Of a DNA stretch of 64,000 bases, positions 5,891 through 38,322 are shown in pieces. Under the pieces are notes generated by a model. That model saw only the letters and a list, made by a program, of their open reading frames with translations. It had not been told where the DNA came from and did not search any database. This DNA is from Diacronema lutheri (Eukaryota > Haptophyta > Pavlovophyceae > Pavlovales > Pavlovaceae). The DNA lies in the NCBI GenBank assembly GCA_019448385.1, contig JAGTXO010000008.1:62001-126000 (forward strand), given 5' to 3'. The translations under genes and the position numbers were made by a program. Each line of letters starts with the position of its first letter. Within the stretch, counting starts at the first letter, position 1.

Positions 5891-6865
5891 CTACTTAATC
5901 GCGTTTTTGACCGTGTCGAGCGCCGCCGCGAGCTCGGCCTTGTCCTCGGCCGAAAGCGCCGGCCCGGCGCGCCACTGCGCGAGCAGCTCAAGCGCGCGCT
6001 TAGCGACGATGTCCGCCTCAAGCTGCGCCTTGGCGCAGTTGAGGTCGGCGAGCAACTGCTGCAGCTGCGCGCGCGACATGCCAGCACCGCCATACTGCGC
6101 CCACGTCGCAAGTGAGTCGACGAGCGCAGGCGGCGCAAGGAGGGGCGCGGCAAGCGGTGCGGCAGCGGACGGCGCGCGCGGCGGGGCCGGCTCGGGCATC
6201 TCGGCTGCGACCGGTGCTGGCGCGGGCGCCGGCGCGTACGGCGGTGGCGCAGGCGCGGGCGCGGGTACGGGCGCGGGCGTGGCCGAGGCGCGTGCCGCGG
6301 GTTTCGCGCCGCCCGCGAGCGCCGCAAAGCTGTCGGCGGCGACGAGCCCGCCGACGGCCGACGGCGCTGGTGAGGCGGCTGCGGGTGCGGGCGGCGGCAG
6401 CGGCGGCGGTGCGACCGGCTCGCGCGCGCGCGCCGTCGTTGCGCCGCCCGCAAGCGCGGCAAAGCTATCGGCTGCGACGACGCCGCCCGTCGCCGCAGCC
6501 GCCGGCGCGAGCGATGGCGGCGGCGCGGCTGGCGAGCTCGTGACTGGCACGGGTGGCGGCGGCGCGATGACTGGCTGGACACCTTTCGCCGCCTTGGTCT
6601 CCGCCGCCTTGCGCTCCGACCACTCCTGAAGCATCCGCTTGGCCATGTTCCGCCGCTCATCGGGCGAGAGCCGCATCGCCTCCTCGCGCCGGCGCTCGAG
6701 CTCCTCGAGCTCGGCGTCGGCGAGGCGCGGGCGCGAGCGGAGGCGCGATGCAGACGCGGGACGCGCCGACTGCCCGACTGCGCGCGCCACGCGCGACACC
6801 AGCGCAGCGTCGCACGGCGCGAGCGCGAGCGCGCAAAGTAGCGCAACGCGCATCGCGACCGCCAT
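5891..6865 (-). CDS. Hypothetical Ala/Pro-rich protein with signal-like leader
   Basis: A single-exon gene of 324 residues that I cannot assign to a family. The N-terminus MAVAMRVALLCALALAPCDA has a basic start, a hydrophobic core and a likely cleavage site near CDA-AL, so it should enter the secretory pathway or, in an alga with a secondary plastid, serve as the first part of a plastid leader. A charged helical segment follows (ELEELERRREEAMRLSPDERRNMAKRML). After it come proline and alanine linkers carrying a twice-repeated block, VAADSFAALAGGA. A C-terminal helical part (QLLADLNCAKAQLEADIVAKRALELL) closes the protein. It is divergent from the channel gene, with 67 bp between start codons. 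The repeated block may be a short binding motif, which is inference. Confidence 0.75.
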   Translation of the reverse strand: MAVAMRVALLCALALAPCDAALVSRVARAVGQSARPASASRLRSRPRLADAELEELERRREEAMRLSPDERRNMAKRMLQEWSERKAAETKAAKGVQPVIAPPPPVPVTSSPAAPPPSLAPAAAATGGVVAADSFAALAGGATTARAREPVAPPPLPPPAPAAASPAPSAVGGLVAADSFAALAGGAKPAARASATPAPVPAPAPAPPPYAPAPAPAPVAAEMPEPAPPRAPSAAAPLAAPLLAPPALVDSLATWAQYGGAGMSRAQLQQLLADLNCAKAQLEADIVAKRALELLAQWRAGPALSAEDKAELAAALDTVKNAIK

Positions 6866-6932
6866 GAACGTGCGATGTCCGGTAGGAAAGAGTCCGGAAT
6901 TATTTCGTCGCCACAGTTCTTGGCATCCGTCA

Positions 6933-9900
6933 ATGACATCGTTTCAACCGATCCAGGAAAGAGAGGGGATGGGCTGGATCTTTGGGGCGGAGCGCGCGTC
7001 GACCGGCCTGAACGCTTCGGCGCACTCGATTTTGAAGAAGGAGAGCGGCGTTAAGCGGCACAAGGCACGCGTCAAGTGGCGCACGCACATCGTCGGCGAA
7101 GACGGCAGCCCGCAGGAAGATGCGAAGCGGCTTGAGCGCACCGCAGACCTCGCGCCGCGCGCGCGGCTGCTCGCATACTTCCGGTCGGTACGCCTGCCCG
7201 CGTTGGTGTACGAGCTCATCATTCTGCCGATGCGCATTGCGTACGACCGCCTCCTCGTCGAGACACCCGCGCTCCTCGTCCTCGACCTGCTCGTCGACAC
7301 GGTCGAGGCGGCGCACATCGTCCAGCGGCTGCGCGAGCGCGCGGCGTGGCGGCAGCCGGAGGCGGCGGCGGCAAAGCACGGCCGCGATGACGCAGTAAAG
7401 GACCAGCCGCCGCTCTACTCGCGCGCGCGCCTCATCGTCGACGTGATCTCTATCCTGCTCAACTACGTTGGCCGGCTCGTGCACTACGTCGCCGGCACCG
7501 ACGCGCTCTTCATCGGCGCGCAGCTGCTGCGCATCGGTCGCATCCACGACTTGGCGGTCTACATGGCAGATATTTCTGCAGACCTGAGCACGAACACCGC
7601 CATTCTCGCCGTCTCCAAGTTTGCGCTCGTCGCGTTCGCCGTGCCCCATTGGATCAGCTGCGGCTGGTGGGCGTCCGCCTTCTACGCGGCCGGGCTGAGC
7701 GAGCAGCAGTCCGAGGTGATCCCGCTCCCATCATGGGTCGCGCAATTTGAGGTGCATACGGGCAACAGCGCGTTTGCCGACGTGGAGACGTCGCTCGCCT
7801 CGCGCTATCTCATCACCACGTACTTTGCGTGGCTCGGCCTCACGTCCAACGGGTACGCGGACATCAAGCTCGCGGGCTCCGAGTCCATCCTCTTCTGCAT
7901 TGCCGTGATGCTCGTGCAGGTTGTTTTTTACGCGTTTGTGCTCGGCACGCTCTTCCACTTCCTCGTGCGCACCGACGATTCGACCGCAAAATTCAAGGAC
8001 CTGCTCAAGGCCGTCGGCGACATCTGCGCAAAGCACGAGCTGCCCAAGTCCGTCTCGGACAAGGTCCGTGCCTACTACGTCTTCCAGCACAGCAAGCAGG
8101 CGTCGGGCACGTTTAGCATCTTCAACCAGCTGCCGGTCACGCTGAAAGTCAAGGTCGCCTCCGCGCAGTATTTTCGGCACGTGGCACACGCGTGGGTCTT
8201 CCGTGGGTGCAACGTGCAGTTGCTCAACCAGGTGGTGATCGCGCTCAAGGAGCTCTACGTCATGCCGCTCGAGGTGCTGCTCAACAAGGGCGACGGCAGC
8301 CGCGAGCTCTTCTGGGTCGTCGACGGCTCGCTCTCCGTGAAGGACGGCGACGTGCACATCGCCACGCTCTCGCCGACGCTCAACGACGGCACCAAGCTGG
8401 GCGACATTGTGGGCGAAATCGCCTTCTTCTTGCGCACGCAGCAGCCTTACACGGTCGCCGCGACCGCGTATGGCGACGTGACGTTGCTCGTGCTGCCGGG
8501 CGTGTTGTACGAGGAGACGATCGCCTCTTACCCTGAGCAGCAGGAGCTCATCATGACCAACATCCACCGCAAATACGGGCTCGACGAGGCGTCCGCACAG
8601 ACGCAGGCGGCGGGCGCGGCCGGCACGGCCAGAAACGAAAACGGCGGCGGCGGCGGCAGCGGCGAGGAGCAGGACGAGTTCGAGGCGCTGCGCTTGTCGA
8701 TTCGCAAGGCGATTGCGCAGCGCGCTGAGGACATGCTCACGCAGATGATGTTCGCCGCGAGCTCGGGCGACGTTGAGACGGTGCGCATGCTCGCGTCGCA
8801 GGGGCTCAAGCTCGACAACGGCAACTACGACGGCCGCACGACACTGCACGTCGCCGCGGCCGAGGGCAATCTCGCCGTCGTTGCGCTGCTGTGCGATCTC
8901 GGCGCGGCGACAAACGTCAAGGACCGCTGGGGGCTCACGCCGCTTGTCGATGCGATCACGCACAAGCACGACGCGGTCGCGGCCAAGCTGCTCGCCGAGG
9001 GCGCGCAGCTCGAGCTCGATGGCTCCGACAGCCTGCTGTTCGCAGCGGTGAGTGCGGGCGACACGCAGCGGATTGCGAGCCTGCTCTCGTTCGGCGTCGA
9101 GATCGACGTGACCACCCACGACAAGCGCACGGCGCTGCACCACGCCGCCACCATCGGCCAGGTGCGCGTCGTCGAGTACCTAATCTCGCGGCTCGCTGAC
9201 GTGAACAAGGCCGACCGGCGCGGCTGGACGCCGCTTGACGATGCGATTCACAATCAGCACCAGATCGTGATGCAGATGCTCAAGCTGGCCGGCTCGATTG
9301 CGTGCGAGAGCGTGCTCGCGACCGAGACGATCAAGGCAGCTGCGTCCGCAGATGTCGACCGGCTGCGCTTCTTGGTCGAAGCGGGCGCGTCGATCAACGT
9401 GCTCGACGTCGACATGCGCACGCCGCTCCACCTCTCCGTGTGCGCCGGCTCGATCTCGACGGTGCAGTACCTCGTCTTTGCAAATGCGGACGTAGAGAAG
9501 CTCGACCGCCGCTCCAACTCGCCGCTCGTCGACGCACTCAACCATTCGAACGAGGCGGCCGCGATCCTCGTCTCTTACTGCGGGCTGCAGCTGCCGTCAA
9601 AGCAGCGCGCCGAGAAAAACCTCGTCGCGATAATGGACGGCGCGAGGGCGCAAGACATGTCGGCGACGAACCGCAAGCTCCGCTTCCGTACCCACCTGCG
9701 CGAGAAGGCTATTGAGGACTCGCAGCGCCGGCAGCGCGAGCTCGGGCACGCGTTCAACACACTTGCGCACGACCTGAGCGTTCTCACGCGCCATTTCACG
9801 ACCATCTACGACGCGCTCGACGAGCGCGCGTCGCGGTGGCTCGAAGCGTACACGGACGCGGACGAGGGCAGCGACGGTGACTCAGCAGCCTCGTCGCAGG

Positions 9901-12900
9901 ACATCGACCCCGCCGACTTCGTCGACGACGACAATGCGTCCGACACCTCATCCATCGGCGCTGCCGTCGACTGCCGCCGCCAATCGTCTGCCGCCGGCGG
10001 ACTGCGCAACTCAGCCGGTACGGCCAACGAGCAGGCGCAACCGGCCGCGCAGCTGCGCGATGCAGCGCCGCACGCAAGCGCTGCCGATGGTGGCGCGCCA
10101 TTGCCGCCGCAAGTCGAGCTGCCGCCGCACCCGGGCGAGTCGGCGAAGACGTTCATTGCAATCGTGCTCCGCCTGCCGCAGGCCGAGCGCGGCCTCTCGT
10201 GGCTGCGCAAACAGTACGAGGAATCTTTACCCTCGGACGGCGGCGCGCTCAGGTCGCTGCCGCCCGCTGAGCGGATGCGCGAAGAGGAGCGCGTGCTTGA
10301 CGAACTACTCACCGCGAAGCTGCTGCTTGAGCCTGACGAGGCGCAGCACGTCCGCGAAGAGATTTACGAGCAGATCGGCCACATCACGGGCGGCGCCGAG
10401 CGGCGCAAGACCTCCATCTTTGGCGCCGAGCGGCGCGGCTCGGCGGGCGGCGCTGAACGCTACCAGCCGGGCGTAAGCGACAACCTGCCGGCTGCCGACG
10501 CGGCCGCGCGCGCTGGTGGCGTGCCTGCCGGCGCGGCCGGCACGGCTGACTTTTCGGCCGGTGGCAAGCTGGACGAGCGGTCTGCGGACAGCCCGCTGCC
10601 CGTGCGCCGCGCAAGCGTCCCGAGTGCGCAGCCGCCCGCGCTCGGCACGCCCACAGGCGCGGCCGCGCCCGGCATGTACCTGGCGGAGATGGGCTACGCA
10701 GCACTCTTCTGCTCGCCTCTCCTCGTCGCCAAGCTCGCAGCACTCTCGACGCGCAAGTTTGGCATGCGCGATCGGCTTGGCACGGGCGCGGCGGCGTCCG
10801 CCGACGCGCCCGACGGCGGAGCCACCTTGACGCCGAACGCGCGTGGCCTCGTGCCTGGCACTGCCGAGCACGCAGCAGCCCTGCGCAACGGCGATGCGCT
10901 CGACGGCGGCTCGCCGTTGCCTTCGCCCGCGGCGCGCAGGGCGTCCAAGCGGCCGGCGTGGCTCACGACCACGCCGCTCCGCTCTTCATGCGCGAGCCGC
11001 ACGCCGAGCGACGACGCCACGGCCGTTGGCGGCGCGCTCGCGGCCAGCGCCGGCATTGGCGGCGGGGGCACAATTGTTCCGCTAGACACGCAGGCGGCCG
11101 ATGCGCTGCGCGCACTCGAGTCGCGCACCCGTCCGGCGCCCTACGGTGGCGAGGCGCGCCGCGGCCGCGTGCGGACTTGGGGCGCGGCTGAATCGAGCAT
11201 GCGGCTCTCGTCGCCGGGGTCGGGCGCAGGGTCGCCTGTCGGGCGCGGCGAGCTGTTGTACAGCCGGCGGCGGATCCGCGCGTCCGAGACGATCAGCGCC
11301 GAGCGGTTGCTCGTCGCGGCAGAGGCAGCGCGCGTGCGCAAGGACGGCGGGTACGACGTGCTGCATGACGACGCGCGGCGAGACGCGATTGAGGCGTGCG
11401 CAGTGCTGAGCGCGCTGTTTGGCGTCTTTGACCGTACGGGCCGCGGCAAGATTCGACTCTCAGATGTCCGCCTGCTGCAGGGCGCGCTGGGCGAGATGGG
11501 CTCGTCGGAAATTCAGTCGCTCGTTGCTTTTCTTGTCGAGGCCGCGCAAACGCTCAACCCTGCCCGCCGCAAGCGCGCTGCAGCCGCGCGCGCGGGCGCG
11601 CACTATGTGGACACGAGCGGCGCTCATGCGGAGCGCCGCTCGTCACGCACGTTCCGCGGCGGCTCAGACGAAGACGAAGAGCTGCGCGTGGCGCGCAAGC
11701 TGCGCGTGCTCACGCGCGTGCAATTTTTTGTCGGTGCCGCCTCTTGGGTCCTCGCCTCGCTAAACGACGAGGACGGCGCGGACGTGGATGCGTCGCACGC
11801 GCGTGCGCCGCGCGCCGGTGGGCTCGCTGCGGCGGTCGCGGCGGCAGACGCTGCTGCGGCGGCGCGGCGGCACGGCGCGCCGTGGCGGATCTACGACGCA
11901 AAGGCCGATGTGGCCGCTGCGCTCAGCGATCTTGACGAGCGCGACGCGTCCGCCTCGCTGCGCAGGCTGCACGAAGCCCTCCTCTCGGCCGCAGCGCTGC
12001 GTGCGCTCGCCGACGCGCTGACCGACCGCATCGTAGGGAAGAAGCTCGACGGGCGGCGCGCGGTCGAGCCCGAAGCGCTGCTTGCGCTGACCAAGCACGT
12101 AGTCGCGATTCCTGTCGGCACGCGCGCCCTCGACTTACTTGGGTGGGCGCGCGAGACGCTCCGCCTGCCACTAAGCGATGCACCGTCGGGCCCGTCGCAG
12201 CTCGGCCTCGCGCTCGCGGGCGCGCCTGCGCTCCACTTTGCAAGCGGCGAGGGCATGAGCAGGGGAGGGGAGCGGCGCGGCTCGATTGCCGCGTCTGAGG
12301 CCGCTGCTGACCGGCGCGCCTCCAACGCGGCGAGCACCGCCGGGCTCATTGCCGCGGGTGCACGCACGCCGCCGGGGCGCACGACGTGGGCACACCTCGC
12401 CACCGCGCTGGGCGAGCGCGCGAGCGCACTCATGGACGACCCGGTGGATGGTGGCGCAGGCACGGACGGTGTGAACAGCAAGCTACCGCACGCACGCGCG
12501 CTCGACGTGCTGCAGCGGTTGATTGCGCCGCGCGACGACGGCAGCGCGTCGATCGATGTGTCGGGTGCGGCGGCGGCGGGCAACGATCGCCGCTGGTTCA
12601 TCGTCGATCACCGCTCTCCGCTGTGCCTCGGATATCGCGCGCTCTTCGAGACATTCGCTGTCTTCGACGCGCTCTTCATACCGCTGCAGCTCTGCTTTTA
12701 CGCCGAGATCTCGCGGATGGCGTGGGTGCATCGCGTGAACTTGTGCACCGACGTTTTTTACTGGGGGCAGGTGGCGCTCCGCTTCCTCACGACCTTTGTC
12801 AACGAGAAGTCGGTCACTGTCACCTCGCCCGCGGATATCCGGCGGCAGTACCTCGCCACCGATTTTCTCGTCGACACCGTCGCGTTCTGGCCGCAAAATT

Positions 12901-15668
12901 ACCTCGCAGGCGTGCTCGGCGCGAGCACTTTCGACTCGCTCGCGCTCCGGCTCTTTCGCATGCTCGCTGCACGCTACCCGTACGGCTCGTATCGCAACTG
13001 GGAGAAGAGCCGTGCGGACATCAAGCTGAGCACGGGCATCGCGCAGCAGCTCGTCCTCATCGCTATTGGCGTGCACATGCTCGCGTGTGTCTACACGCTC
13101 TTCTCCTACTCGGTCGGCTCAACGCACGCGACGCCCGGCTCGTGGGCCGCGCGGTACGACGAGCAGCTGTATGCGCTGCAGGCGACGGAGAGCACGCTGT
13201 ACCGGCAGACCGCAGAGGGCAGGCTCCTGCGCAAGTACGAAGTGTCGGTCAGAAAGCGGCGCGCTGCGCTTGTGCAACCCAATCCGCGCCCGTGCTCACG
13301 CCGAGCGAGTTGCGCCGCGCGCCACCGGTCGTCGCGTGCTCTGCAGGTCATGTTTGTGCTGCAGGCGCTCACACGCACGGGGCAGACGCAGCTGCCCTCC
13401 AGCTACGGCGAAATTTGCTTCCTCGTGCTGCTCATGATCTTGTCGGTGACGGCATTCGCGTGGGCGATCGGACGTATCTCGACGCTCGTGATGAAGCAGG
13501 ACAATGAGATTGTCACCAAGCGCACCGCGCTGCAGCAGGTGCAAGGCTACATTGCGCACACGCGCGTGCCCGCCGACCTTGCGGCGGAGATCGCCGGATT
13601 CTTCCACACGCGCCTCAAGGACGCGTCGAGCTCGTCGGTGCGCGGCGACTCGATCATCGCCGCGCTGCCCGTCTCGTTGCAGATTGAGATAGGGCGCATC
13701 ACACACAGACATTTTGTCGTCGGCGCCGCACTCTTCCACGGTTGCTCGGACGGCTTTGTCGACCGCCTCGCCTCGCTGCTGCGCGAGCGCCGCCTTGAGC
13801 CTGACCAGGTCCTCTTCCGCACGACCGAGCTATGCAAGGAGCTCGCGATCATCACGCTCGGTGCCGTGCGCGTGTTTGACGACCCGCTGCAGGAGGGCGG
13901 CGAGCAGGGCGCGGTCGCGACGCTCGTCGTGGGCGAGACGATTGGCGACGTCGCCTTCATCTTTGGGCTGCGCCACTTTAACAACGCGAGCTGCGAGTCC
14001 GACGGGCCCGCAACGCTCGCGACGCTCTCGCTCGACGACTTCAAGCTGCTTCTCAAGGTCTTTCCCGCCCAGGAGGACGTGCTGATGGACAACGCGATGA
14101 TGCAATTTGACGGCGTGTCGACCAGCCGTTCGGGCAGGTCCGTGACCTCCGCGCGCACGGGCAAGTCGGGCCGCTCCGCCAAGTCACGCCGCTCGACGCG
14201 CTCGGGCCGATCGACTGGCTCGAGCTACACTGCATCCAACATCCAGTCGGCAAACGCGAGCTCCGAGAGCGCGATCCAGGCGGTCATCTCAACTGCGCGC
14301 GTCAAGCGCAACAATATGCATACCGTGCGCCTGTGCTCCGCCTGCGCGATTGGCGATGTGTCGCGCATTCAACGGCTGCTTTCCGCGCACCAGATCGACG
14401 TGAACCGCGGGGACTACGACTGCAGGCGCCCGCTGCACATCGCGGCGAGTCGCGGGCACACGCAGGCCGTCGAGCTGCTGGTCGCGTCCAAGGCCGATCT
14501 GAGCGTGCTCGATCGCAACGGCCGGACGCCTCTCGCCGAGGCGCTCGCCAACCGGCACAACGGCGTCTCCAAGGCGCTCGTCCGCCACGGCGCCGAAGCG
14601 CTCATCGAGCGGCTCGTCGACAAGCTCTGCCGCGCGGCGGCAAACACGGACGCGCTCGACGAGCTCACGTGCCTTTTGCAGGGCACCGCTGACGCGGCGG
14701 CGCTTGTGGACGAATCTCTCCGCACGCCGCTCCACGTCGCCGCCGCAGCGGGCAATGCAGAGCACATGAACGCCCTCATCAGCGCGAGCGCCGACGTCAA
14801 CGCGACCGACCGGTACGGCGTCACGCCGCTCCACGACGCATTCCGGCACGAGCACGAGGCGTGCTCCGCGCTGCTGCTCGGCTGCGGCGCGACGATGGGC
14901 GCCAAATTTGACCAGGTGAGCGAAATGTGCAAGGCTGCGTCCGCCGACGACGTGCCGCAGCTCAAGCGGCTGCTGCAGCACCGGTGCGACATCAATGCGG
15001 AGAACTACGACGGCCGAACCGCGCTGCACCTCGCCGCCGCAACGCAGAAGCTCGCCGCGTGCACCTTCATCCTCTCACTCGACGGCGTACGCGTCAACTT
15101 TGAGGATCGATACGGAGAGACGGCCTACGACGACGCGCTCCGCACCGAGGGCAAGCTGCGGCAGGTCGTGTCGAGCCTGATCGCGGCTTTTGGCGGCAAG
15201 CGCGGCTCAAAGGTGATGCGGCCAAGTGCCGAGCGCGCGCGCGCCGAGCAGGCCAAGGCATTGGTTGACCTTTCGACGGTCGAGTCAATGCGCACGATGG
15301 TCGTGACGGCGATGCGCCTCGGCCGCTGGACAACGGCGGAAGTCAAGAGCGCGCGCGCGCTCGCAAAGCGGACATCCGAGGCGTGCGAGCTCGAGGACGA
15401 CGAAGGGCCCGTTCTCGCCGACGCTCGACCCACCTACTTGCACGCAGTGTGCGATTTTGCCCAGGAACACCACCAGCGGACGTCGAACTTTGTGGGCAAG
15501 CTGAAGCCGCTCCTTCACGAGTGGCAGAAGATGCAGGATCAATACGGCACGCTCAAGCAAGAGATCCAACGACGGCTGTCGACCATCATCAACATGCAGG
15601 AAAAGATCACCTTCGCGCTTGACTCGCTCCGCGAGGCGCGTTTCCGCGCGCCGTCCGCTAGCGCTTGA
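6933..15668 (+). CDS. Giant two-repeat CNBD/ankyrin ion channel
   Basis: The gene encodes about 2,876 residues. Repeat 1 holds a six-segment voltage-gated-type pore region (residues about 85-350, filter TSNGYAD at about 305), a C-linker and cyclic-nucleotide-binding domain (about 420-545) and ankyrin repeats (about 600-890). A long Ala/Ser-rich linker follows, with an EF-hand-like segment (FDRTGRGKIRLSDV, about 1490). Repeat 2 again has a channel region (about 1890-2190), a CNBD (about 2230-2350) and ankyrin repeats (about 2425-2710). The order TM-CNBD-ANK matches plant AKT/Shaker potassium channels, but those have one copy per chain and a TTVGYGD filter. Here filter 1 keeps GY only and repeat 2 reads TRTGQTQ, so potassium selectivity is doubtful. 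One intron (13242-13346, 105 nt, GTGTCG...CTGCAG) interrupts repeat 2; it is in frame and stop-free. The start is taken at ATG 6933; an upstream ATG overlaps the divergent gene, and 6969 is an alternative. Confidence 0.85.
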   Translation: MTSFQPIQEREGMGWIFGAERASTGLNASAHSILKKESGVKRHKARVKWRTHIVGEDGSPQEDAKRLERTADLAPRARLLAYFRSVRLPALVYELIILPMRIAYDRLLVETPALLVLDLLVDTVEAAHIVQRLRERAAWRQPEAAAAKHGRDDAVKDQPPLYSRARLIVDVISILLNYVGRLVHYVAGTDALFIGAQLLRIGRIHDLAVYMADISADLSTNTAILAVSKFALVAFAVPHWISCGWWASAFYAAGLSEQQSEVIPLPSWVAQFEVHTGNSAFADVETSLASRYLITTYFAWLGLTSNGYADIKLAGSESILFCIAVMLVQVVFYAFVLGTLFHFLVRTDDSTAKFKDLLKAVGDICAKHELPKSVSDKVRAYYVFQHSKQASGTFSIFNQLPVTLKVKVASAQYFRHVAHAWVFRGCNVQLLNQVVIALKELYVMPLEVLLNKGDGSRELFWVVDGSLSVKDGDVHIATLSPTLNDGTKLGDIVGEIAFFLRTQQPYTVAATAYGDVTLLVLPGVLYEETIASYPEQQELIMTNIHRKYGLDEASAQTQAAGAAGTARNENGGGGGSGEEQDEFEALRLSIRKAIAQRAEDMLTQMMFAASSGDVETVRMLASQGLKLDNGNYDGRTTLHVAAAEGNLAVVALLCDLGAATNVKDRWGLTPLVDAITHKHDAVAAKLLAEGAQLELDGSDSLLFAAVSAGDTQRIASLLSFGVEIDVTTHDKRTALHHAATIGQVRVVEYLISRLADVNKADRRGWTPLDDAIHNQHQIVMQMLKLAGSIACESVLATETIKAAASADVDRLRFLVEAGASINVLDVDMRTPLHLSVCAGSISTVQYLVFANADVEKLDRRSNSPLVDALNHSNEAAAILVSYCGLQLPSKQRAEKNLVAIMDGARAQDMSATNRKLRFRTHLREKAIEDSQRRQRELGHAFNTLAHDLSVLTRHFTTIYDALDERASRWLEAYTDADEGSDGDSAASSQDIDPADFVDDDNASDTSSIGAAVDCRRQSSAAGGLRNSAGTANEQAQPAAQLRDAAPHASAADGGAPLPPQVELPPHPGESAKTFIAIVLRLPQAERGLSWLRKQYEESLPSDGGALRSLPPAERMREEERVLDELLTAKLLLEPDEAQHVREEIYEQIGHITGGAERRKTSIFGAERRGSAGGAERYQPGVSDNLPAADAAARAGGVPAGAAGTADFSAGGKLDERSADSPLPVRRASVPSAQPPALGTPTGAAAPGMYLAEMGYAALFCSPLLVAKLAALSTRKFGMRDRLGTGAAASADAPDGGATLTPNARGLVPGTAEHAAALRNGDALDGGSPLPSPAARRASKRPAWLTTTPLRSSCASRTPSDDATAVGGALAASAGIGGGGTIVPLDTQAADALRALESRTRPAPYGGEARRGRVRTWGAAESSMRLSSPGSGAGSPVGRGELLYSRRRIRASETISAERLLVAAEAARVRKDGGYDVLHDDARRDAIEACAVLSALFGVFDRTGRGKIRLSDVRLLQGALGEMGSSEIQSLVAFLVEAAQTLNPARRKRAAAARAGAHYVDTSGAHAERRSSRTFRGGSDEDEELRVARKLRVLTRVQFFVGAASWVLASLNDEDGADVDASHARAPRAGGLAAAVAAADAAAAARRHGAPWRIYDAKADVAAALSDLDERDASASLRRLHEALLSAAALRALADALTDRIVGKKLDGRRAVEPEALLALTKHVVAIPVGTRALDLLGWARETLRLPLSDAPSGPSQLGLALAGAPALHFASGEGMSRGGERRGSIAASEAAADRRASNAASTAGLIAAGARTPPGRTTWAHLATALGERASALMDDPVDGGAGTDGVNSKLPHARALDVLQRLIAPRDDGSASIDVSGAAAAGNDRRWFIVDHRSPLCLGYRALFETFAVFDALFIPLQLCFYAEISRMAWVHRVNLCTDVFYWGQVALRFLTTFVNEKSVTVTSPADIRRQYLATDFLVDTVAFWPQNYLAGVLGASTFDSLALRLFRMLAARYPYGSYRNWEKSRADIKLSTGIAQQLVLIAIGVHMLACVYTLFSYSVGSTHATPGSWAARYDEQLYALQATESTLYRQTAEGRLLRKYEVSVRKRRAALVQPNPRPCSRRASCAARHRSSRALQVMFVLQALTRTGQTQLPSSYGEICFLVLLMILSVTAFAWAIGRISTLVMKQDNEIVTKRTALQQVQGYIAHTRVPADLAAEIAGFFHTRLKDASSSSVRGDSIIAALPVSLQIEIGRITHRHFVVGAALFHGCSDGFVDRLASLLRERRLEPDQVLFRTTELCKELAIITLGAVRVFDDPLQEGGEQGAVATLVVGETIGDVAFIFGLRHFNNASCESDGPATLATLSLDDFKLLLKVFPAQEDVLMDNAMMQFDGVSTSRSGRSVTSARTGKSGRSAKSRRSTRSGRSTGSSYTASNIQSANASSESAIQAVISTARVKRNNMHTVRLCSACAIGDVSRIQRLLSAHQIDVNRGDYDCRRPLHIAASRGHTQAVELLVASKADLSVLDRNGRTPLAEALANRHNGVSKALVRHGAEALIERLVDKLCRAAANTDALDELTCLLQGTADAAALVDESLRTPLHVAAAAGNAEHMNALISASADVNATDRYGVTPLHDAFRHEHEACSALLLGCGATMGAKFDQVSEMCKAASADDVPQLKRLLQHRCDINAENYDGRTALHLAAATQKLAACTFILSLDGVRVNFEDRYGETAYDDALRTEGKLRQVVSSLIAAFGGKRGSKVMRPSAERARAEQAKALVDLSTVESMRTMVVTAMRLGRWTTAEVKSARALAKRTSEACELEDDEGPVLADARPTYLHAVCDFAQEHHQRTSNFVGKLKPLLHEWQKMQDQYGTLKQEIQRRLSTIINMQEKITFALDSLREARFRAPSASA

Positions 15669-29276: not shown

Positions 29277-30740
29277 CTACCGGTGACACACGATGCCTAG
29301 GCACCTGGGCGACTCGCGTGCGTCAAACATGCGCACAATCCACGCGGCCGACGCCTGGCCGCTCTCTAGCACGTGCAGCAGCCGATCGAGCGCAATGGCC
29401 GCCTCGACCGCGGGCGCGAGCGCGAGGCGGAGCACCTCAAGCTTCTTTACGCGCAGCAGGTCGTGCGCGCTGCATCGCCGCTCGAGCTCGAGCAGCTCGG
29501 TTTCGCACACGGCGTCCGGATCAAAGCCGAGCTGCGCGAGCGCCGCTCGCGCGTACGCCACCCACGAGGCGCTCCTGTGCGCCACCCTGCCCACCTGCAG
29601 CTCAGCGTGGCGCGCGCGCACATCGACGCCGAGCGAGTCGCGCAGCACGAGCGTCAGCATTGGCCGCCAGAGCGTGCGGTCGGGCGCGTCGGCGTCGGCG
29701 GTGGCGGCCGCGTCGGCGTGCGGGCGCAGCTCGCGCTCGAGCGCCTTCGACGCGAGCATGCGCAGGTGGCGCGAGAGGTGCAGCTCGCGCTGCCGCATGT
29801 GCCGCGATGCCGGGAAAGCGCCGTCGGCCATCAAGTGGTAGCAGCAGCCCACGCACACGAGGCCCCACAGGTCAGACCGATTCACAAAAGCACCGATTGC
29901 CGTCGTCGTCAAGTCGCCGCATGCGTGCAGGCCCGTGAGCACCGTGCGGTGCGCGCGTGCGTCGCCATCCGCACCGTCGTCGCCGCGCTCGCCCGCGCTT
30001 TCCGCAACGCCGCCGCCCGAGCGCAACACGCCCGGGTCAAACTCGCCAGCAGGCGCCGCCTGGGCAAGCCACGCGGTGCGGAGCTCGTGCTGCCCGCCCG
30101 CGTTGCGGAAGAGGCGGGAGACGTTTGCGTGGCGCTTCGCCGCGCCCGCCGTGATGAGCGCGCTGCCCTCGACCGAGACCGTTTGGATCCCGAGCCCAAC
30201 TGATAAGAACGAGCCAAGGTAGCCCTTGCCTGAGCCGACGTCGACCACGCGCACGGGCCCGTCGGCGGCGAGCCACTGCACGGCGCGCGCAACGCGGCCC
30301 ACCTCGTGCGCCTTCTTGTGCGCGAGCAGCGCGCGGTGCTTGCGCAGCTGCGAGCTCCACTCGCCGTCGGCGCACGCGCCGGCGCGCGAGGCGCAGAGCG
30401 CGTCCAGCTCGACAGCGAGCCCGGCGAGGCGGCATGCGCCGGCGCCGGTGAAGAACGCGGGCACGTCGCAGATGATGTGGAGCGCGACTGGTGCGGCTGG
30501 CGGGCGCGCCGGCCGCTCCGCAGGCGCGGCCACGGAAAGCAGCGCGAGCTTGCGCAGCTGCTCGAGCGAGAGCGCGTCGAGCTGCGCACGCGCGGCTGGC
30601 GAGAGGAGCGCCGACCAGTGGTCGTCGGAAAGGAAGCTGGCGGGCGCGACGTCGGCCAGCGCGCCGTACGCGCGGATGAACTCGGCGCACGCGTCCGCGT
30701 GCCGCCGCGCGATGGAGGCTGGCTCATCGCCTACCGGCAT
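29277..30740 (-). CDS. METTL25: METTL25-family methyltransferase-like protein
   Basis: A single exon of 487 residues. The central part holds HKKAHEVGRVARAV, then the SAM-binding strand VRVVDVGSGKGYLGSFLS, and later TVLTGLHACGDLTTTAIGAF with VGCCYHLMA. These are the characteristic blocks of the METTL25/RRNAD1 family, a Rossmann methyltransferase fold; METTL25-type enzymes are associated with histidine methylation of ribosomal or regulatory proteins in some organisms, so the substrate here is open. The N-terminal 100 residues are helical and the C-terminal half is basic-acidic and helical. No targeting signal is visible. The start codon lies only 33 bp from the divergent start of the RNB-helicase gene. 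Confidence 0.85.
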   Translation of the reverse strand: MPVGDEPASIARRHADACAEFIRAYGALADVAPASFLSDDHWSALLSPAARAQLDALSLEQLRKLALLSVAAPAERPARPPAAPVALHIICDVPAFFTGAGACRLAGLAVELDALCASRAGACADGEWSSQLRKHRALLAHKKAHEVGRVARAVQWLAADGPVRVVDVGSGKGYLGSFLSVGLGIQTVSVEGSALITAGAAKRHANVSRLFRNAGGQHELRTAWLAQAAPAGEFDPGVLRSGGGVAESAGERGDDGADGDARAHRTVLTGLHACGDLTTTAIGAFVNRSDLWGLVCVGCCYHLMADGAFPASRHMRQRELHLSRHLRMLASKALERELRPHADAAATADADAPDRTLWRPMLTLVLRDSLGVDVRARHAELQVGRVAHRSASWVAYARAALAQLGFDPDAVCETELLELERRCSAHDLLRVKKLEVLRLALAPAVEAAIALDRLLHVLESGQASAAWIVRMFDARESPRCLGIVCHR

Positions 30741-30773
30741 CGCTGGCTGCAGCTGCTACCATAGCAAGGCACG

Positions 30774-33700
30774 ATGGTTGACTGCGTCGCCGTCATCCGG
30801 TTGGACGACCGCAACCGGTACGAGAACAATGGGATCCCGGCGTCAATGCTCTTCTCGGGCGGGCGGCGGTGCGTCGTGCACATGAAGGACAAGACGCTCG
30901 AGAAGGCGGGCAAGCGCAACCGGTTTGCAAAGGTCCGGCTGCAGAGCGAGTCGGCGGCCGTCGCGGAGCTCGTCGAGCTGCTCGGCAACGTCGGCGAGTA
31001 CGCGGCCGAGCTCTACGCATACCAGCTGCATTACGCCATAAAGCCGTGCCGCTACCCTGTGCGCGACCGTTGGGACCTCCGCCCGGCCGACGCGCCCGCC
31101 GGCGCCGAGCCGCGCGTTGACCGCACCGACCTCGACGTCTTCTCCGTCGACAATGAGAGCACGCGCGACGTGGACGACGCGCTCTCGTTCGAGTTTGACG
31201 GCGATGCGTCGTCGTGCACGATCGGTATCCACGTCGCCGACGTCGCCTCACGCATCAGTTGCGGCACCGAGCTCTTCGCGTGGGCGCGCGAGCGTGCAAG
31301 CTCCGCGTACCATGGTGGGATTGGCGACGGCGAGAACGACCACGGCTCGGTGCCCATGCTCCCGCCCGAGCTCGCGCACGGCGAGCTCTCGCTCAACGAG
31401 GGAGCGCGGCGGAACGCGCTCAGCCTTTTCCTTCGCGTCGAGGCCGGCCGCGTCATCGGCCGCGCGCACGCGCGCACGCTCATTGTCAACCGGCGGCAGA
31501 CTACGTACGCAGCGTTTGCGGCTGACGACGCGGCCGAGCCAACGCGCGCGCGCGAGCTGCTGCGCGCGCTGTCGGGGAAGCACGACACGGAGGAGCTGAT
31601 CGCGTGGACGATGATCGAGTACAACCACTACTTTGGCGAGCTCCTCGCCTCGGCCGCTGAGACGGCGCTCGCGGCGGCCGCCGCCGGCCTCGCCGGCAAC
31701 GCGCACGCGCCGCCGCCGGTCGGCCTGCTGCGCGTGCAGCTCGTCGCGGGCGAGGCGGCGTCCTACGTGCTCGCCGCGGCGGATGGCGCGGCGGTGAGTG
31801 CGGTGCACGTGTCGCTCGGCCTGCTCAACTACGCGCACTGCTCGTCGCCCATCCGCCGTTACGCCGACCTGCACAACCAGCATGCGCTCTTCGCGACGCT
31901 GCACGCGGCCGACGCGGCGGACGGCTCGGCGGCCGTATGCGATGCGCGCTCGCTCGCTGCGCTCAACGCGCGCGTGACGCAGGTGGCGCGGTACCACGCG
32001 ACGGTAACGGCGACCGAGCTGGCGTACCGTTGCCGCGAGGCGCCAATGCTCTTCCATGGCCTCGTCGAGACCGGCGAGGACGGGCGCTACCTGCTCGTCT
32101 ATACGGAGCGCGGGCGCGTGAACGTGCCGCTTGACGACTCGTACTTTGCGGAGCCGCTCGCCGCCGCATTTGGCGGCGAGGAGGCGGCGAGCGGCGCGCG
32201 CACGCGTGCGCTGACGGTCGAGCTGTGCGGTGTTCTCAAAGGCGGGCGGATGCGGCTGCGCCTGCGCGTGCCGACCGTTGCAGCTGCGGCGATGGTTGCG
32301 GGTGCGCGGTTGCAGCCCGTCGCGAGCGCGTCGCCCTTCTGTGCGCGGCAGCACCGCGCGGGCGTCGGCGCAGAGGCGGGGGCGGGGGCGGGGGCGGAGG
32401 CGGAGGCGGAGGCGGAGGCGGAGGCGGAGGCGGAGGCGGCGGCAAGTGCGCAGGCGGAGGTCGGCGCGGACGCCGTGCCCGCCACGCCCGGTGCCTTCGC
32501 CGAGCATCGAGCCTCGATCTTCGGGATGCTCGGCTCTCTCGGCGCATCAGAGCGAGTGCTCGACCAGTTGCGCTCGTCGCCCCTGTCCGCCGCGCAGCTC
32601 TGTGCCGCGTCGCCGGAGGCGCTTGCCGAGTTGGCGGGCTGCGAGATGGCGGACGCGCTGATGATGGCAGACGTGTGCGCCTCGCTTGCGCTCTCCCTTG
32701 GCATCGGCCCGCCCGCCACGCCGTCGTCCGCACCGCGGTTGGCCGACGGCGTGCGCTCGACCGGCGCGGCCGGCGCGGCCGGCGCCGAGCCGTGTGCGGC
32801 GCGCGCGGACGAGGTGGGCGGTGGCTTGGCCAGCGTGAACGGTGGCGCGACGCCGGCGCGCGGCGCTCCCGACGTGCCCATCGCCGCCGCCACGCCGCCC
32901 ACGCGCGGTGCGAGCAGCGCGAGCGGCGGTGTCCCTCGCGACAGCGCACACGATGGCGTCGACGAGACGCAGCAGGCGGACGACGAGGATGCGACGCTCG
33001 CGGCATTCCTCGCGCAGCTCGGGATCTCGCCCACGCTCATCGCGACGCTCAGTCAGCTCAACATTGGCGCGCAGGCGCTGCGCATCGTCTCCGCTGACGA
33101 GATCGTCAATCTGACCGGCTGCTCGCTCGACGAGGCGAGAGCGGTCGTCTCCGGTGCCGCAGCGGGCGCGCAGCCGGCCGGCGCGGCGCGCGGCGCGGCG
33201 GCGGGCGCGCTCGCGCCGTCGGGCGGCCCGCTCGAGCGTGCCGAGGTCGACGGCGTCCTCGGCTACCCAATCGACGCCTTCCAGGAGCGCTGCCTTGCGG
33301 TGATCGTCGACCCTCAGCGCGACCTCCTCGCCATGGCGCCGACCGGCTCGGGCAAGACGGCAGTCGCGTTGATGGCGATTCTGCAGGCGTTCCGGCGGGG
33401 CAAGAAGGCGGTGTACACCTCGCCGATCAAGGCGCTCTCCAACCAAAAGTACGCCGAGTTCCGCTCGTGGTTTGGCCGGCGCGGCCTCGTCGCGGGCGTG
33501 TCGCTGCTGACGGGTGACATTAAAATTCGGGCGCCGCCCGGCACGGCGTGCGAGCTGATCATCTGCACGTCGGAGATTCTGCGCAACAAGCTGGTCAAGA
33601 CGGTCGCTGGGCCCAACTGGGCCCAGCCCGAGCCGCCGCCGCTGCCCGGCGTCGCGGGCGCCGCGGGCGCGGCCGTGGCGGGCATGGGCGAGCTCGACCT

Positions 33701-36307
33701 CGCCGAGCTGGGCGTGGTCATCTCTGACGAGATTCATTACATCAACGACGTGGAGCGCGGCGGCGTGTGGGAAGAGACACTGATGCACTTGCCGCCGTCC
33801 GTGCAGATGGTCGCACTCTCCGCCACGCTGCGCGAGCCCGAAGCCTTCCTCGCGTGGATCCAGAAGGCGCGCGGCCGCGCAGGCAAGCTCGTGCGCCGAA
33901 CCGACCGGCACGTGCCGCTGCACGTCGGTGGCCTCGACCGGCGGTCGGACAGGTTTGTCGAGTACTTTGGCACGCACGGCGGCCGCGCGGGCCGCTTCGA
34001 CCGCGCCACCTTCGAATCGCTTTACCGACCGCTCACCAACCCGACGCCAACGGCTGAAGGCGAAATGGCGGCGGGCGTTGCGGCCGCGCACCGCGCCGAG
34101 CGCGAACACGAGCGCGAGGCGCAGCGCGCCGAGTTTGCGGGCGGCGGCGGCGGGCGCGGTGGTGGTGGTGGCGGCAGGCGCGGCGGTGGCGGAGGTCGCG
34201 GCGGCGGCGGCGGCGGCGGTGTCGCGCGCGGCGGCGCGCGCGGCGGCGCGCGCGGCGGCGCGCGCGGCGGCGCGGGCAGCAGGCCGCAGCCGCCGTCGAT
34301 CAACTACCGCGGTGAGTGCATTCGCCTTGCGCGCGCGCTGCACAGCAGCAACCGCATGCCCGCAATCGTCTTCTGCATGTCACGCAAGCGATGTGTGGAG
34401 GGTGCGCTCGCCGTCGCAGAGATGAACCTGCTGACGGGCCAGCGCGGCGACGCGCCCGCGCAGCCGCCCAAGAACGCGAGCGCTGAGGCGCTCGCGAGCT
34501 GGGAGGCGGCGCAGGCGCGCAAGCAGACGAGCGTGCGCGCCAATCGCGTCGCTCGCTCGCAGATGCATGCGCTCCACCTGCAGCGCTACATGCCTGAGCT
34601 CGGCGAGTTGCAGGCGTACACCGAGGTGATGGCGCTGCTCGACCGAGGCGTCGCCTATCATCACGGTGGGATGCTGCCCGTGCTGCGCGAGTTTGTCGAG
34701 CTGTGCTTTCAGCAGAAACTCGTCCGCCTCGTCTTTGCCACCGAGACGCTCGCTGTCGGCGTCAACATGCCCGCGCGCACCGTTGTCTTCACGCAGCTCG
34801 ACAAGCCAAACGATGGCGTCCTGCCCGGACACCGACCGCTGCGGCCCGACGAGTTCTGGCAGATGGCGGGGCGCGCGGGGCGGCGCGGGATGGACGTCCT
34901 CGGCTACGTGATCTACGCGCCCACCCTCTCCGTCGCCGGCCTGCGCAACATGCAGGGCGCCAACGAGGTTGCCGAGATGCTCACGGGACAGATGCCCGCA
35001 GCCTCCTCGCAGCTCGCCATCGACGAGCCGTTCGTGCTGCGCCACCTGAGCCGCGGCATCGGCGTGGAGGTGCTCGACAAGACGCTGCTCGCCAATCAGC
35101 TTGGCCGCGAGAGCGCAGCGCTCGAGCGTCGCCTCGGCGCGGCGGGCGGCGCGGCGGCCGACGGCGCGGACAGCGGCGCGCTCGCAAGCGCGGTCGCGCA
35201 GCTCGTCGAGCTTGAGGGCAAGCTGTGCGGCGGTGACGCGCAGCTGAAGGTGAAGCTGACGCAGCTGCAGCGCAAGCAGATCGAGGCCGAGCTCGCCCAG
35301 CTGCGCGAGCTGCACGGCGCGCGCCTCGACGACGCGCGGCGCGAAGCCGACGAGCGCGCGCGTGCGCTCGCGACGATTGAAACAAACCGCGTGACGCTCG
35401 CCAACCAGTGGCGCGCGCGGCTCGGCTGGCTGCGCGACTTTGGCTTTGTCGAGCCGCACGACGAGACCAAGCTCACCGCACGCGGACGCGCGTCCGCCGC
35501 ATTTGCGGACGGGCAGCCGCTCATCGTCGGCACGATCATCTCCGACGGTCGGCCGCGCCGCGCACGCCACGCCGCGCGCATGCCGCGCGCACGCCGCGCC
35601 GCGCGCGCGCCCATGCGCCGCACGGTCGCGCCGCGCGCCTGCGCTCCGCCTTCTCCTCCTCTCACGCGCGCGCGGACGCAGGTTGGCTGAAGGAGTTGAC
35701 GATTGGCGAGGTCTGTGCGTGGCTCTGCCTCTTCCTCAAGGAGAGCCGAATCAACGACCCGACGCAGAGCGAGCTGCAGCCCGAGAAGATGTCCGCGGCG
35801 CTCACCGACGTGTTCGGCGCCACGTGGGAGCTCGCCGAACACCTCGACGTGCGCGCGCGCGCACCGCCGCTGCGCGCGCCGCAGCGCGCGCTCACCGCGC
35901 GGCGCGCACGCGCCGCGCGGCGCGAAGGTGGAGCTGGACGCGAGCCTGTCTCGCGTGATGCTCGATTGGTGCACGCACAAGAGCATCCAGCGCATCGCCG
36001 TGTGGATCGACGCGCACGTGCTCGGCTCGTTCGTCAAGGCGGTGATGCGCGTCGTCTCGTACATCGACGTCGTGCGCGAGGTGCTGCTCGGGTTGGGCGA
36101 GTATGAGCTGCACGCGCGGCTCGACCACCATATGGACCTGCTCCTCGGCGGGCTGGTCACCAACGAGTCCCTCTGTAAGGACGGCTGTTGCGCTGTGACC
36201 GGCCTCGCACCGCGTGCGCGCGCCTGTCTGCGCCTTACGCGCGCGCCGCGCGCCGCGCCCCGCTCCTCCGGCCCTGCCCCGCAGATTTGCGGATGGGCGA
36301 CTTTTGA
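30774..36307 (+). CDS. RNase II (RNB) exonuclease fused to Ski2-like helicase
   Basis: The exons (30774-35547, 35682-35848, 35928-36174 and 36285-36307) give 1,736 residues. Residues about 110-390 form an RNB domain with all four metal-binding aspartates in D-x5-D-x-D-D (D126, D132, D134, D135), HVADV, MLPPELAHGELSLNEGAR and the RNA-contacting SPIRRYADL. A short S1-like tail follows. Two small helical SAM-like domains (about 578-643 and 743-798) come next. From residue 830 there is a complete Ski2-type helicase: MAPTGSGKTAV, TSPIKALSNQKY, SDEIHYIND (DEIH box), VALSATL, FATETLAVGVNMPART and QMAGRAGRRGMD. It ends with a DSHCT-like helical region. A Gly/Arg-rich insert (near 34140-34280) lies inside the helicase. 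The last exon is 23 nt (LRMGDF, then TGA), supported by the strong donor GTAAGGAC and phase 1. The protein should unwind RNA and degrade it 3'-5' in one chain. No clear organelle leader is seen. Confidence 0.88.
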
Positions 36308-36906
36308 CCTTCCAGTCTGTGCCTCGAGTGGGTCGCACGCGGGCATGCAGCGGGCATGCAGATTGCAGCGGCCGCCCTTGGCCCGGCGCCGGGCCACTGC
36401 CCAATCAATGCACACGGCAACGGGTGGCGGGGCGAGGAGACGGAGCGCGCGTCGGGTGTCAGAGCGCGGGGGCGGCGGCGGGCGCGCCGCGCGCGTGCCA
36501 CCGCCGCTTTTGGCGACCGCCCGCCCCCGTGCGCACCTTTTGCGCGCCGCTTCGACCCGAAGTCCGGATTCTGAGCCGCCCTCGATGGCTTTCATCAATT
36601 CAGGGATGTCTTTTTAGTTAGGACCCGGTTGTAAACGTGTCGCCTTCATGCATTTAATTGGCACCGGGGCGTCTCACCCGCAAAGTTCGAGTCGCCGAGG
36701 TCGCGCAGGGCGGTGCGCGCGCCCCGGCGGACGACGCGCACGCGCGCGCTGCCCATACCCGCGCGCGCGCGGCGGCCGGCTCATGCAATGAGCTGCTTGC
36801 CCGCCCGCCCGCCCGCCGCCATACCCCGCCTACCCTCGCCGATTCTCGCCCCCATCCCTGCCTCATCTTCGTCCCGACAGGTTGACGCGGCTGGGGCCGG
36901 GTGAGC
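36308..36906. promoter_or_regulatory. Spacer upstream of the homeodomain gene
   Basis: Open frames here are low-complexity shadows. An AT-richer stretch at 36590-36660 (TTTTTAGTTAGGACCC, TGCATTTAATTGGCACC) is the best promoter candidate. A CAG followed by GTTGAC near 36880 could be the 3' end of a 5'-UTR intron, which is speculative. Confidence 0.4.
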
Positions 36907-38322
36907 ATGTTTTTCAACGTATTGCCGTCGTTCCGAGGGCGGCGCACGCGGGAGAAGTTCCTCGAGTGGCAGCTCGCTCTTCTCGAAGCCTGCTTCAAGG
37001 CGGACCGCTTCCCGCCCGCGGTGCGCCCGCGCGCGCACGCCCCGCAGGATGTCATCTGCTGGTGCCACCGCGCGGCCGGCCGACCGGCCTGCGAGCTCGC
37101 GGCCAAGCGCGCGCGCGCCACGCGCCGCGCGCTCGCCGCCGCCGACACCGCTGTCCGCCCGCTCGCCTATTTGCGCGCGCAGGACGTCCGCGACCAGCTC
37201 GCCGCCGAGCTCGGGATTGCGGAGCGGTGTGTGCGCGTGTGGTTCCAGAATCGAAGGCAGCGCCACCGCAAGGCGATGGAGCAGCCGCCGGCGGTGGCGG
37301 ACGGGCATGGAGGCGGCGGGTACGACGACGCGGGTAGCGAGGATGACGACGGCCACGCCGACGAGGAAGCCTCCGAGCCGCTCAAGCCGAGGGCGCAGCC
37401 GCCGTCGGCGTGTGGCGGCACAGACAGCGACGGCAGTGCGGCCGGGGCCGTGCCGCCCGTTGGCGCGCCCGCGGCGGGCAGAGCGGCGGCCGCCAGCGCG
37501 TCTGATGGGAGCAGCCACCACGCGCTCGTCAAGCTGGACCCGTGCGCCGTCGTCGAGCTGGCCAAGCAGTTCCGGCCCGCATCACACGTGCCAGGCAGCA
37601 ACGTTGCATCGCGCCGGCCATACGCGCACCGGCTGGCGTCGCCGCTTCGCCCGGTCATAGGCGGGTTTGGTGAGGGCTACCCCGTGTATCCAGGCTATGG
37701 CGTCGCGCCGCACGATCCCTATGGCCAGCTCGCGGCCGTGCACGGCGCGCCGCTGGTAGGCGCAGCGCAGCCAAGGTTTATTGTGAGCAACGGTGCTTGC
37801 TACCAGCTCGTCGCGCCGATGGACGGCCTCTTTGGCGGGCACCCGGCAGCGGGCGCGATGATGGGCGCTCTCGGCCTGCCATCCGTCTCTGCGATGCCGA
37901 GCGGCTACGTCATGCCGCAGCAGCCGCGCGAGCCGCAGCCACACCCGGGCGTCGACGCATTTGCGCCGCCGCGCCAATCGCCGCCTCCGCCGGCCGTGGG
38001 TCCCTACGGCGGCTACACGAGCGCGGGAACGCACGATCGGATGGACGGGCATTTTGCGTCCGTGCACATGCTGCCGTCGCTGCACGCCGGCGACGCTTGC
38101 TTGCACGCTGGCGCACACGGCTGCGCGAGCAGATGGGCGGCAGGGTCTGCGCCGCCAGTCTTCCCCGCGGGCCCGGGCCCCATGGGCGGCGCTGGCAATG
38201 GGAATGCGCAGCTGGGCGGCGTTCAATTGAGCGCTGACAGCGGCGGCGCGGCCAACTTGCTCGTCTACAAAGCCGGCGCGCCGGCGCACGGCCCGCACAG
38301 CACGGGCGAAGGGAGGCGGTGA
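36907..38322 (+). CDS. Homeodomain transcription factor
   Basis: A nuclear DNA-binding protein. Exon 1 (36907-37020) starts MFFNVLPSFRGRRTREKFLE and covers helix 1 of the homeodomain. Exon 2 (37183-38322) starts DVRDQLAAELGIAERC and carries the recognition helix VRVWFQNRRQRHRK. Across the join the domain has the standard 60-residue spacing, which supports a GT-AG intron of 162 nt that is in frame and stop-free. Removing it is essential: if retained it would split the domain with 54 extra residues. The rest (to 417 residues) is low complexity with acidic, Pro, Gly, Met and His stretches. The residues QNRR and the basic tail are intact. It is a typical rather than TALE-type homeodomain, since no three-residue loop insertion is visible. 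Targets are unknown. Confidence 0.85.
   Translation: MFFNVLPSFRGRRTREKFLEWQLALLEACFKADRFPPAVRPRAHAPQDVICWCHRAAGRPACELAAKRARATRRALAAADTAVRPLAYLRAQDVRDQLAAELGIAERCVRVWFQNRRQRHRKAMEQPPAVADGHGGGGYDDAGSEDDDGHADEEASEPLKPRAQPPSACGGTDSDGSAAGAVPPVGAPAAGRAAAASASDGSSHHALVKLDPCAVVELAKQFRPASHVPGSNVASRRPYAHRLASPLRPVIGGFGEGYPVYPGYGVAPHDPYGQLAAVHGAPLVGAAQPRFIVSNGACYQLVAPMDGLFGGHPAAGAMMGALGLPSVSAMPSGYVMPQQPREPQPHPGVDAFAPPRQSPPPPAVGPYGGYTSAGTHDRMDGHFASVHMLPSLHAGDACLHAGAHGCASRWAAGSAPPVFPAGPGPMGGAGNGNAQLGGVQLSADSGGAANLLVYKAGAPAHGPHSTGEGRR

Follow-up and report, generated by a model that had tools for sequence, protein, structure and literature searches.

How helicases are coupled to nucleases in RNA decay is known mainly from work on assemblies of several subunits. 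Ski2 or Mtr4 and Dis3 are separate partners that are joined via the exosome ring, and DIS3L2 is not known to possess a helicase. A multi-subunit example is mtEXO of yeast mitochondria, in which Suv3 feeds the 3' end of the RNA to Dss1 and the pair is far more effective on structured RNA than Dss1 alone (PMC5758563). In the marine haptophyte alga Diacronema lutheri, a single predicted gene at 30774-36307 of the stretch analysed here (64,000 nucleotides, positions 62,001 to 126,000 of contig JAGTXO010000008.1; hereafter the window) joins an RNB exoribonuclease-type half to a Ski2-like helicase half. The genomic sequence confirms this fusion frame as real.

Comparison with described helicase-nuclease systems

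Like Suv3-Dss1 (PMC5758563), the fusion combines a helicase of superfamily 2 (SF2) with a domain of the RNB exonuclease type. Suv3-Dss1, however, consists of two subunits and is mitochondrial, whereas the fusion is one chain in which no mitochondrial leader was recognised by eye, and the single place with a SUV3_C domain found in the same genome is separate from it. Dss1 has winged-helix (WH) and helix-turn-helix (HTH) contact domains, whereas the fusion has two predicted five-helix modules (no search was aimed at WH or HTH).

Concerning the exosome-linked enzymes, the helicase core and the DSHCT domain are common to the Ski2-like family, and the RNB domain is akin to those of Dis3 and DIS3L2. 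The arch of Mtr4 (stalk and beta-barrel; PF13234, PF21408) is not among the Pfam matches of the fusion, whereas both parts are present in the Mtr4 of the same genome (L011); equally, the genome's own Dis3 (L016) possesses PIN and CSD1 (the first cold-shock domain), whereas no PIN domain is among the Pfam matches of the spliced fusion model. DIS3L2 resembles the fusion in having an RNB domain without PIN, and it is the top match of the RNB half among PDB sequences (42.7 bits), with RNase R scoring the same within one bit (about 42 each); in alignment, however, the RNB core of DIS3L2 is longer. As to the plastid proteins ISE2 and RNR1, helicase motif I of the fusion (PTGSGKT) is the same as in an ISE2-like paralogue (L013, assigned by eye), which is a separate gene.

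The fusion is not the first that unites RNB and helicase, since HELZ2 is already known, but its arrangement is different. The helicases of HELZ2, which we take to be Upf1-like SF1 and not Ski2-like SF2 enzymes, flank the RNB domain on both sides, whereas the fusion has a single helicase, which is Ski2-like and lies C-terminal to the RNB domain. According to its report (PMC9839780), human HELZ2 carries its RNB domain between two helicases and degrades single-stranded RNA from 3' to 5', with cold-shock (CSD) and S1 domains apparently absent; it thus resembles the fusion in having RNB and helicase in one chain and reduced surroundings of the RNB domain. The algal protein combines features of mtEXO and HELZ2 and is identical to neither.

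Organization of the fusion gene

The forward strand is open from stop to stop at 30765-35690, i.e., for 1641 codons (1641 aa), and the predicted gene model runs from an ATG at 30774 to a TGA at 36305-36307, encoding 1736 aa with the C-terminus NESLYLRMGDF. Three introns of 134, 79, and 110 bases are predicted, all of them GT-AG and none a multiple of three. From N- to C-terminus, the order is CSD2-like strands, RNB, S1-like region, two five-helix modules, Ski2-like helicase, and DSHCT. The features are as follows (window coordinates, strand, description):

30774..35547 (+): exon 1, aa 1-1591, running from the N-terminus through RNB half, linker, and helicase core into the C-terminal region; from open frame and codon bias
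30780..30941 (+): CSD2-like sequence, about aa 3-56; from tblastn with viral RNB N-termini and alignment
31113..31904 (+): RNB domain, aa 114-377, with a shortened central part
31149..31178 (+): catalytic Asp cluster D126-D135; from motif pattern and alignment
31845..31871 (+): SPIRRYADL motif, aa 358-366; from motif pattern
32052..32288 (+): putative S1-like beta region, about aa 427-505; from strands in a low-confidence model
32487..32696 (+): first five-helix module, aa 572-641; from predicted structure, SAM/(HhH)2-like
32964..33152 (+): second five-helix module, aa 731-793; from predicted structure, UvrC/Rad51/SAM/NusA-like
33279..33953 (+): helicase RecA1, about aa 836-1060; Pfam DEAD 86.8 bits, SKI2 alignments
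33339-33359 (+): PTGSGKT, aa 856-862; from motif pattern
33726-33737 (+): DEIH, aa 985-988; from motif pattern
34311..34931 (+): helicase RecA2, about aa 1180-1386; Helicase_C 33.8 bits, alignment
34860-34889 (+): QMAGRAGRRG, aa 1363-1372; from motif pattern
35466..36143 (+): DSHCT domain, aa 1565-1719, split by two introns; 43.1 bits in the spliced protein
35682..35848 (+): exon 2, DSHCT region, preceded by a GT-AG intron; DSHCT detected in the spliced model only
35928..36174 (+): exon 3, remainder of the DSHCT domain; acceptor picked by frame and similarity
36285..36307 (+): exon 4 with stop, encoding the C-terminus NESLYLRMGDF; compare the SLY ends in the frames of the Mtr4-type paralogues L012 and L011

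The four-exon model reproduces exactly the extent given in the original prediction, made from the letters of this DNA. The splice model is supported by the DSHCT domain (cut-off 22.7 bits), which is found in the spliced protein and not in the unspliced frame; it is split across exons 1 to 3, while the helicase core lies in exon 1. The exon-by-exon search of the genome did not list DSHCT at this gene.

An open frame alone proves little here, since the window is rich in GC (65-76% per 2 kb) and long frames abound in it (47 of at least 400 aa, true genes included). It might therefore be supposed that two adjacent genes, RNB and helicase, with mRNAs of their own, are joined by a chance open frame, the more so as the junction is partly of low complexity and its codon signal weak. 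This explanation appears very improbable. By a codon log-odds model for which four paralogue frames from this genome served as training set, the fusion frame was the best of the six frames in all 16 blocks of 100 codons, the junction included, where it scored 0.26 (block 501-600), 0.30 (601-700), and 0.41 (last block of the region 501-800), whereas the other frames were mostly negative there (best rival 0.19, in block 601-700). The weakest block of all is 1101-1200 (0.23), which is Gly/Arg-rich, followed by 501-600 and 601-700. The claim that RNB precedes a Ski2-like helicase in one open frame thus holds, with codon bias unbroken through the junction; a hidden stop between the halves, which had been named as a finding that would speak against fusion, is absent from the frame, and two helical modules are predicted within the junction. 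Furthermore, according to the genome report (PMC8379373), the published assembly (43,502,671 bases, 103 contigs, 73.25% GC, 45% single-exon genes) was built from PacBio reads and polished with about 150-fold Illumina reads, for which reason a sequencing error as the cause of the fused frame is unlikely.

Within the RNB half, the predicted catalytic residues are complete, as originally proposed: D126, D132, and D134 (by motif pattern) and D135 (by translation) are present, as are Tyr179 and the SPIRRYADL motif. With 106.5 bits against a cut-off of 29.3, the half belongs to the Pfam RNB family; the match, however, covers only profile positions 1-128 and 283-325. The span from the catalytic Asp to SPIRR amounts to 232 residues, whereas it is 289-311 in all 80 viral RNBs compared (the best 80 of 190, a partly redundant set with many near-identical members) and 294-316 in two RNB controls (L103, L104) and a further D. 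lutheri RNB (L015). On account of this short core, the RNB half is best regarded as a reduced relative that is homologous to the RNase II/R/Dis3 family and not as a canonical member. Upstream of it, viral RNB N-termini used as tblastn queries hit 30780-31058 (E 1.8e-4 and 0.002), and aa 1-119 have no Pfam match. For CSD1, no match below E 0.88 was obtained in 20.0-30.77 kb, a more distant or more diverged exon being possible. The S1-like region has no Pfam match.

Concerning the linker, the original prediction placed two SAM-like modules between the halves. Two helical modules are indeed predicted there, and they are SAM-like at the level of fold only, since the five-helix bundles match SAM and the (HhH)2 domains of Rad51 and UvrC about equally. 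Per ten residues, the predicted local distance difference test (pLDDT) score of the first module is 47-81 in one model and 63-81 in the other; for the second module, the values are 57-84 and about 57-79. A Foldseek search with the linker model gave no match at E 0.001 (best 0.27), which is no evidence of a new fold. An internal alignment of the linker reaches a local score of 56, attained by 1 of 2000 shuffles; as the stretch is rich in alanine, an internal duplication in the linker is suggestive only. A DprA_WH match (E 0.02-0.03) fell below the cut-off and was rejected.

The helicase half was correctly predicted as Ski2-like with a DEIH box: its motifs, including QMAGRAGRRG, are intact, and DEAD, Helicase_C, and DSHCT each score over their cut-offs. 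ResIII (34.0) and DEXQc_Suv3 (28.9, cut-off 27) also do so, overlapping DEAD; the latter is taken as a cross-match, as the paralogues L011, L012, and L013 pass likewise. SUV3_C is not among the Pfam matches of the spliced fusion model. Among PDB sequences, the nearest to this half are SKI2 (201 bits), the top match, and MTR4. The motif I that it shares with L013 is replaced by AHTSAGKT in two Mtr4 paralogues. In a helicase tree of 30 rows (five from the D. lutheri genome and 25 of the 85 loci described below), the fusion lies on a long branch (2.64) at an open fork, and mutual attraction between the fusion and L013 is possible there; no claim of origin is based on this placement.

Genomic context and search for the same pairing

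The genome (43,492,796 bases, 103 contigs) was searched exon by exon with only the best candidates scored, such that genes can be missed. Besides the fusion, four DSHCT places were found: L011, an Mtr4 with arch domains; L012, Mtr4-like; L013, ISE2-like; and L014, of an unsettled Ski2/Mtr4 type. The RNB places are three, namely the PIN-bearing Dis3, L015, and the fusion, and RNase PH yielded eight matches in seven frames. Since Dis3, L015, Mtr4, Suv3, and RNase PH-family genes are kept, the fusion looks like an addition to the ordinary decay set and not like a replacement of the exosome, and the minimal exosome-independent machine originally proposed finds no support in this setting. A placement in the plastid found no support: the predicted N-terminus of the fusion passes straight into CSD2-like sequence, whereas the separate L013 has a leader-like start (both by eye).

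As observations on the paralogues themselves, L013 (G000:C92:69200-77200) has the leader-like N-terminus MAATRLLFGMRALLLAVLATCRG, its plastid targeting being judged by eye, and in L014 (G000:C4:141500-150500), whose open frame comprises about 2200 aa, the DSHCT match is limited to profile positions 61-170.

When the frame was searched by tblastn, 21 of 50,697 phage records and 57 of 72,556 plasmid records matched, but in none of them did a single place cover 80% of the query; among the matches listed (20 of the 21 and 40 of the 57, respectively), either RNB or helicase was covered, never both. A search of viral contigs with the single frame gave two pattern matches, neither of them a relative. 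At E 1e-3, no RNB frame stood beside the helicase in any of 85 loci (80 out of 583 helicase loci, plus two viral, two plasmid, and one phage; some flanks are shorter than 10 kb), although both RNB controls were recovered. Conversely, no Ski2-like helicase frame was found at that threshold beside viral RNBs (0 of the best 80 of 190 loci), whereas the same query found its frame in 85 of 87 other loci. A bacterial origin of the pairing thus found no support among the loci sampled. RNB was found in two of ten helicase-bearing genomes searched, so that the pairing is not general among these. Among the titles and abstract starts listed from the open-licence literature, none describes an RNB-Ski2 fusion.

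Two of the records are themselves peculiar. The helicase of MT835496.1 (L020), labelled Bacteriophage sp., groups inside actinobacterial homologues, and the record is possibly a bacterial contig; NZ_LT559118.1 (L018), which stands among the plasmids, is 11.85 Mb long and looks like a misplaced chromosome.

Possible mode of action and alternatives

It seems fairly probable that this nuclear gene encodes a single-chain helicase-exoribonuclease, a covalent analogue of Suv3-Dss1 whose helicase feeds the 3' end of the RNA to the RNB domain. The Ski2-like motor (RecA1, RecA2, and DSHCT, with no Mtr4-type arch detected) would grip a structured RNA at its 3' end and move 3' to 5' on it, driven by ATP; the strand would reach the RNB domain by way of the two five-helix modules, running either through or alongside them, and would be hydrolysed there from the 3' end by the four-Asp metal site. 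To capture and unwind RNA, the trimmed RNB domain, in which CSD1 is not detectable, may depend on the helical modules and on the helicase fused to it. We infer that the protein is expressed and active, that feeding has this direction, and that it works in the nucleus or cytosol rather than in an organelle. More tentatively, the protein may represent a new class of covalent RNA degradosome, in which an RNB nuclease that has lost CSD1 and part of its core works only because the motor, fused to it via two nucleic-acid-binding helical modules, unwinds and threads the RNA; one gene would then accomplish what takes several in Suv3-Dss1 or in Ski2 with the exosome.

Several points weigh against a coupled exonuclease. 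The RNB domain is by a net 57 or more residues shorter than in the 80 viral enzymes and the three other RNBs, and the predicted structure of its half is weak (mean pLDDT 50.6, with residues 295-357 and 378-426 below 50). The fusion has been seen in one genome only and is known from DNA sequence. For HELZ2, moreover, loss of the RNase by mutation is reported to have altered the measured function by less than 2-fold, helicase mutants mattering more (PMC9839780); from this precedent, it therefore does not follow that function is driven by the RNB part. The shortened half might accordingly be a pseudonuclease, an RNA-binding clamp for the helicase in the manner of Ssd1; the short core, the interrupted Pfam match, and the missing CSD1 match in 20.0-30.77 kb agree with this, and Ssd1 is among the fold matches of the RNB half, but so are active enzymes. 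A pseudonuclease would, however, be free to lose the four Asp residues, Tyr179, and SPIRRYADL, all of which are retained, and HELZ2 is active though its CSD and S1 domains are apparently absent (PMC9839780); we regard this alternative as unlikely. Somewhat less doubtful, but still only possible, is a role in processing instead of bulk decay, in which the enzyme trims particular structured RNAs, for example precursors of rRNA or small RNAs bearing tails, and perhaps replaces DIS3L2. No separate DIS3L2 gene was found among the three RNB places, and among relatives of solved structure, DIS3L2 is one of the nearest to the RNB half; the near-equal score of RNase R, however, leaves the subfamily unsettled, and the genome search may miss genes.

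If the coupled helicase-exonuclease is real, one chain with both activities would constitute a compact system in which the delivery of RNA by a motor to an exonuclease can be measured, and the trimmed RNB domain would reveal what this fold can do without when a helicase is joined to it. As a fusion of the 'Rosetta stone' type, the protein would also back the view that RNB enzymes and Ski2-like helicases touch each other directly.

Concerning the neighbourhood, a gene with a Methyltransf_32 domain (74.9 bits), presumably METTL25-like, lies head-to-head with the fusion:

29277..30740 (-): Methyltransf_32 neighbour (frame 29277-30755)

The two ATGs are 33 bases apart, which suggests that the genes share a very short promoter or that 5' exons have escaped notice. 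In the next downstream frame, 36886-38322 (+), a homeodomain is matched with 46.6 bits, the best stretch covering profile positions 28-57; its beginning probably lies in another exon. At 6630-15668 (+), an open frame of 3012 aa combines ankyrin repeats in several blocks with a cyclic-nucleotide-binding domain and a weak ion-transport match below the cut-off, an unusual channel-like architecture.

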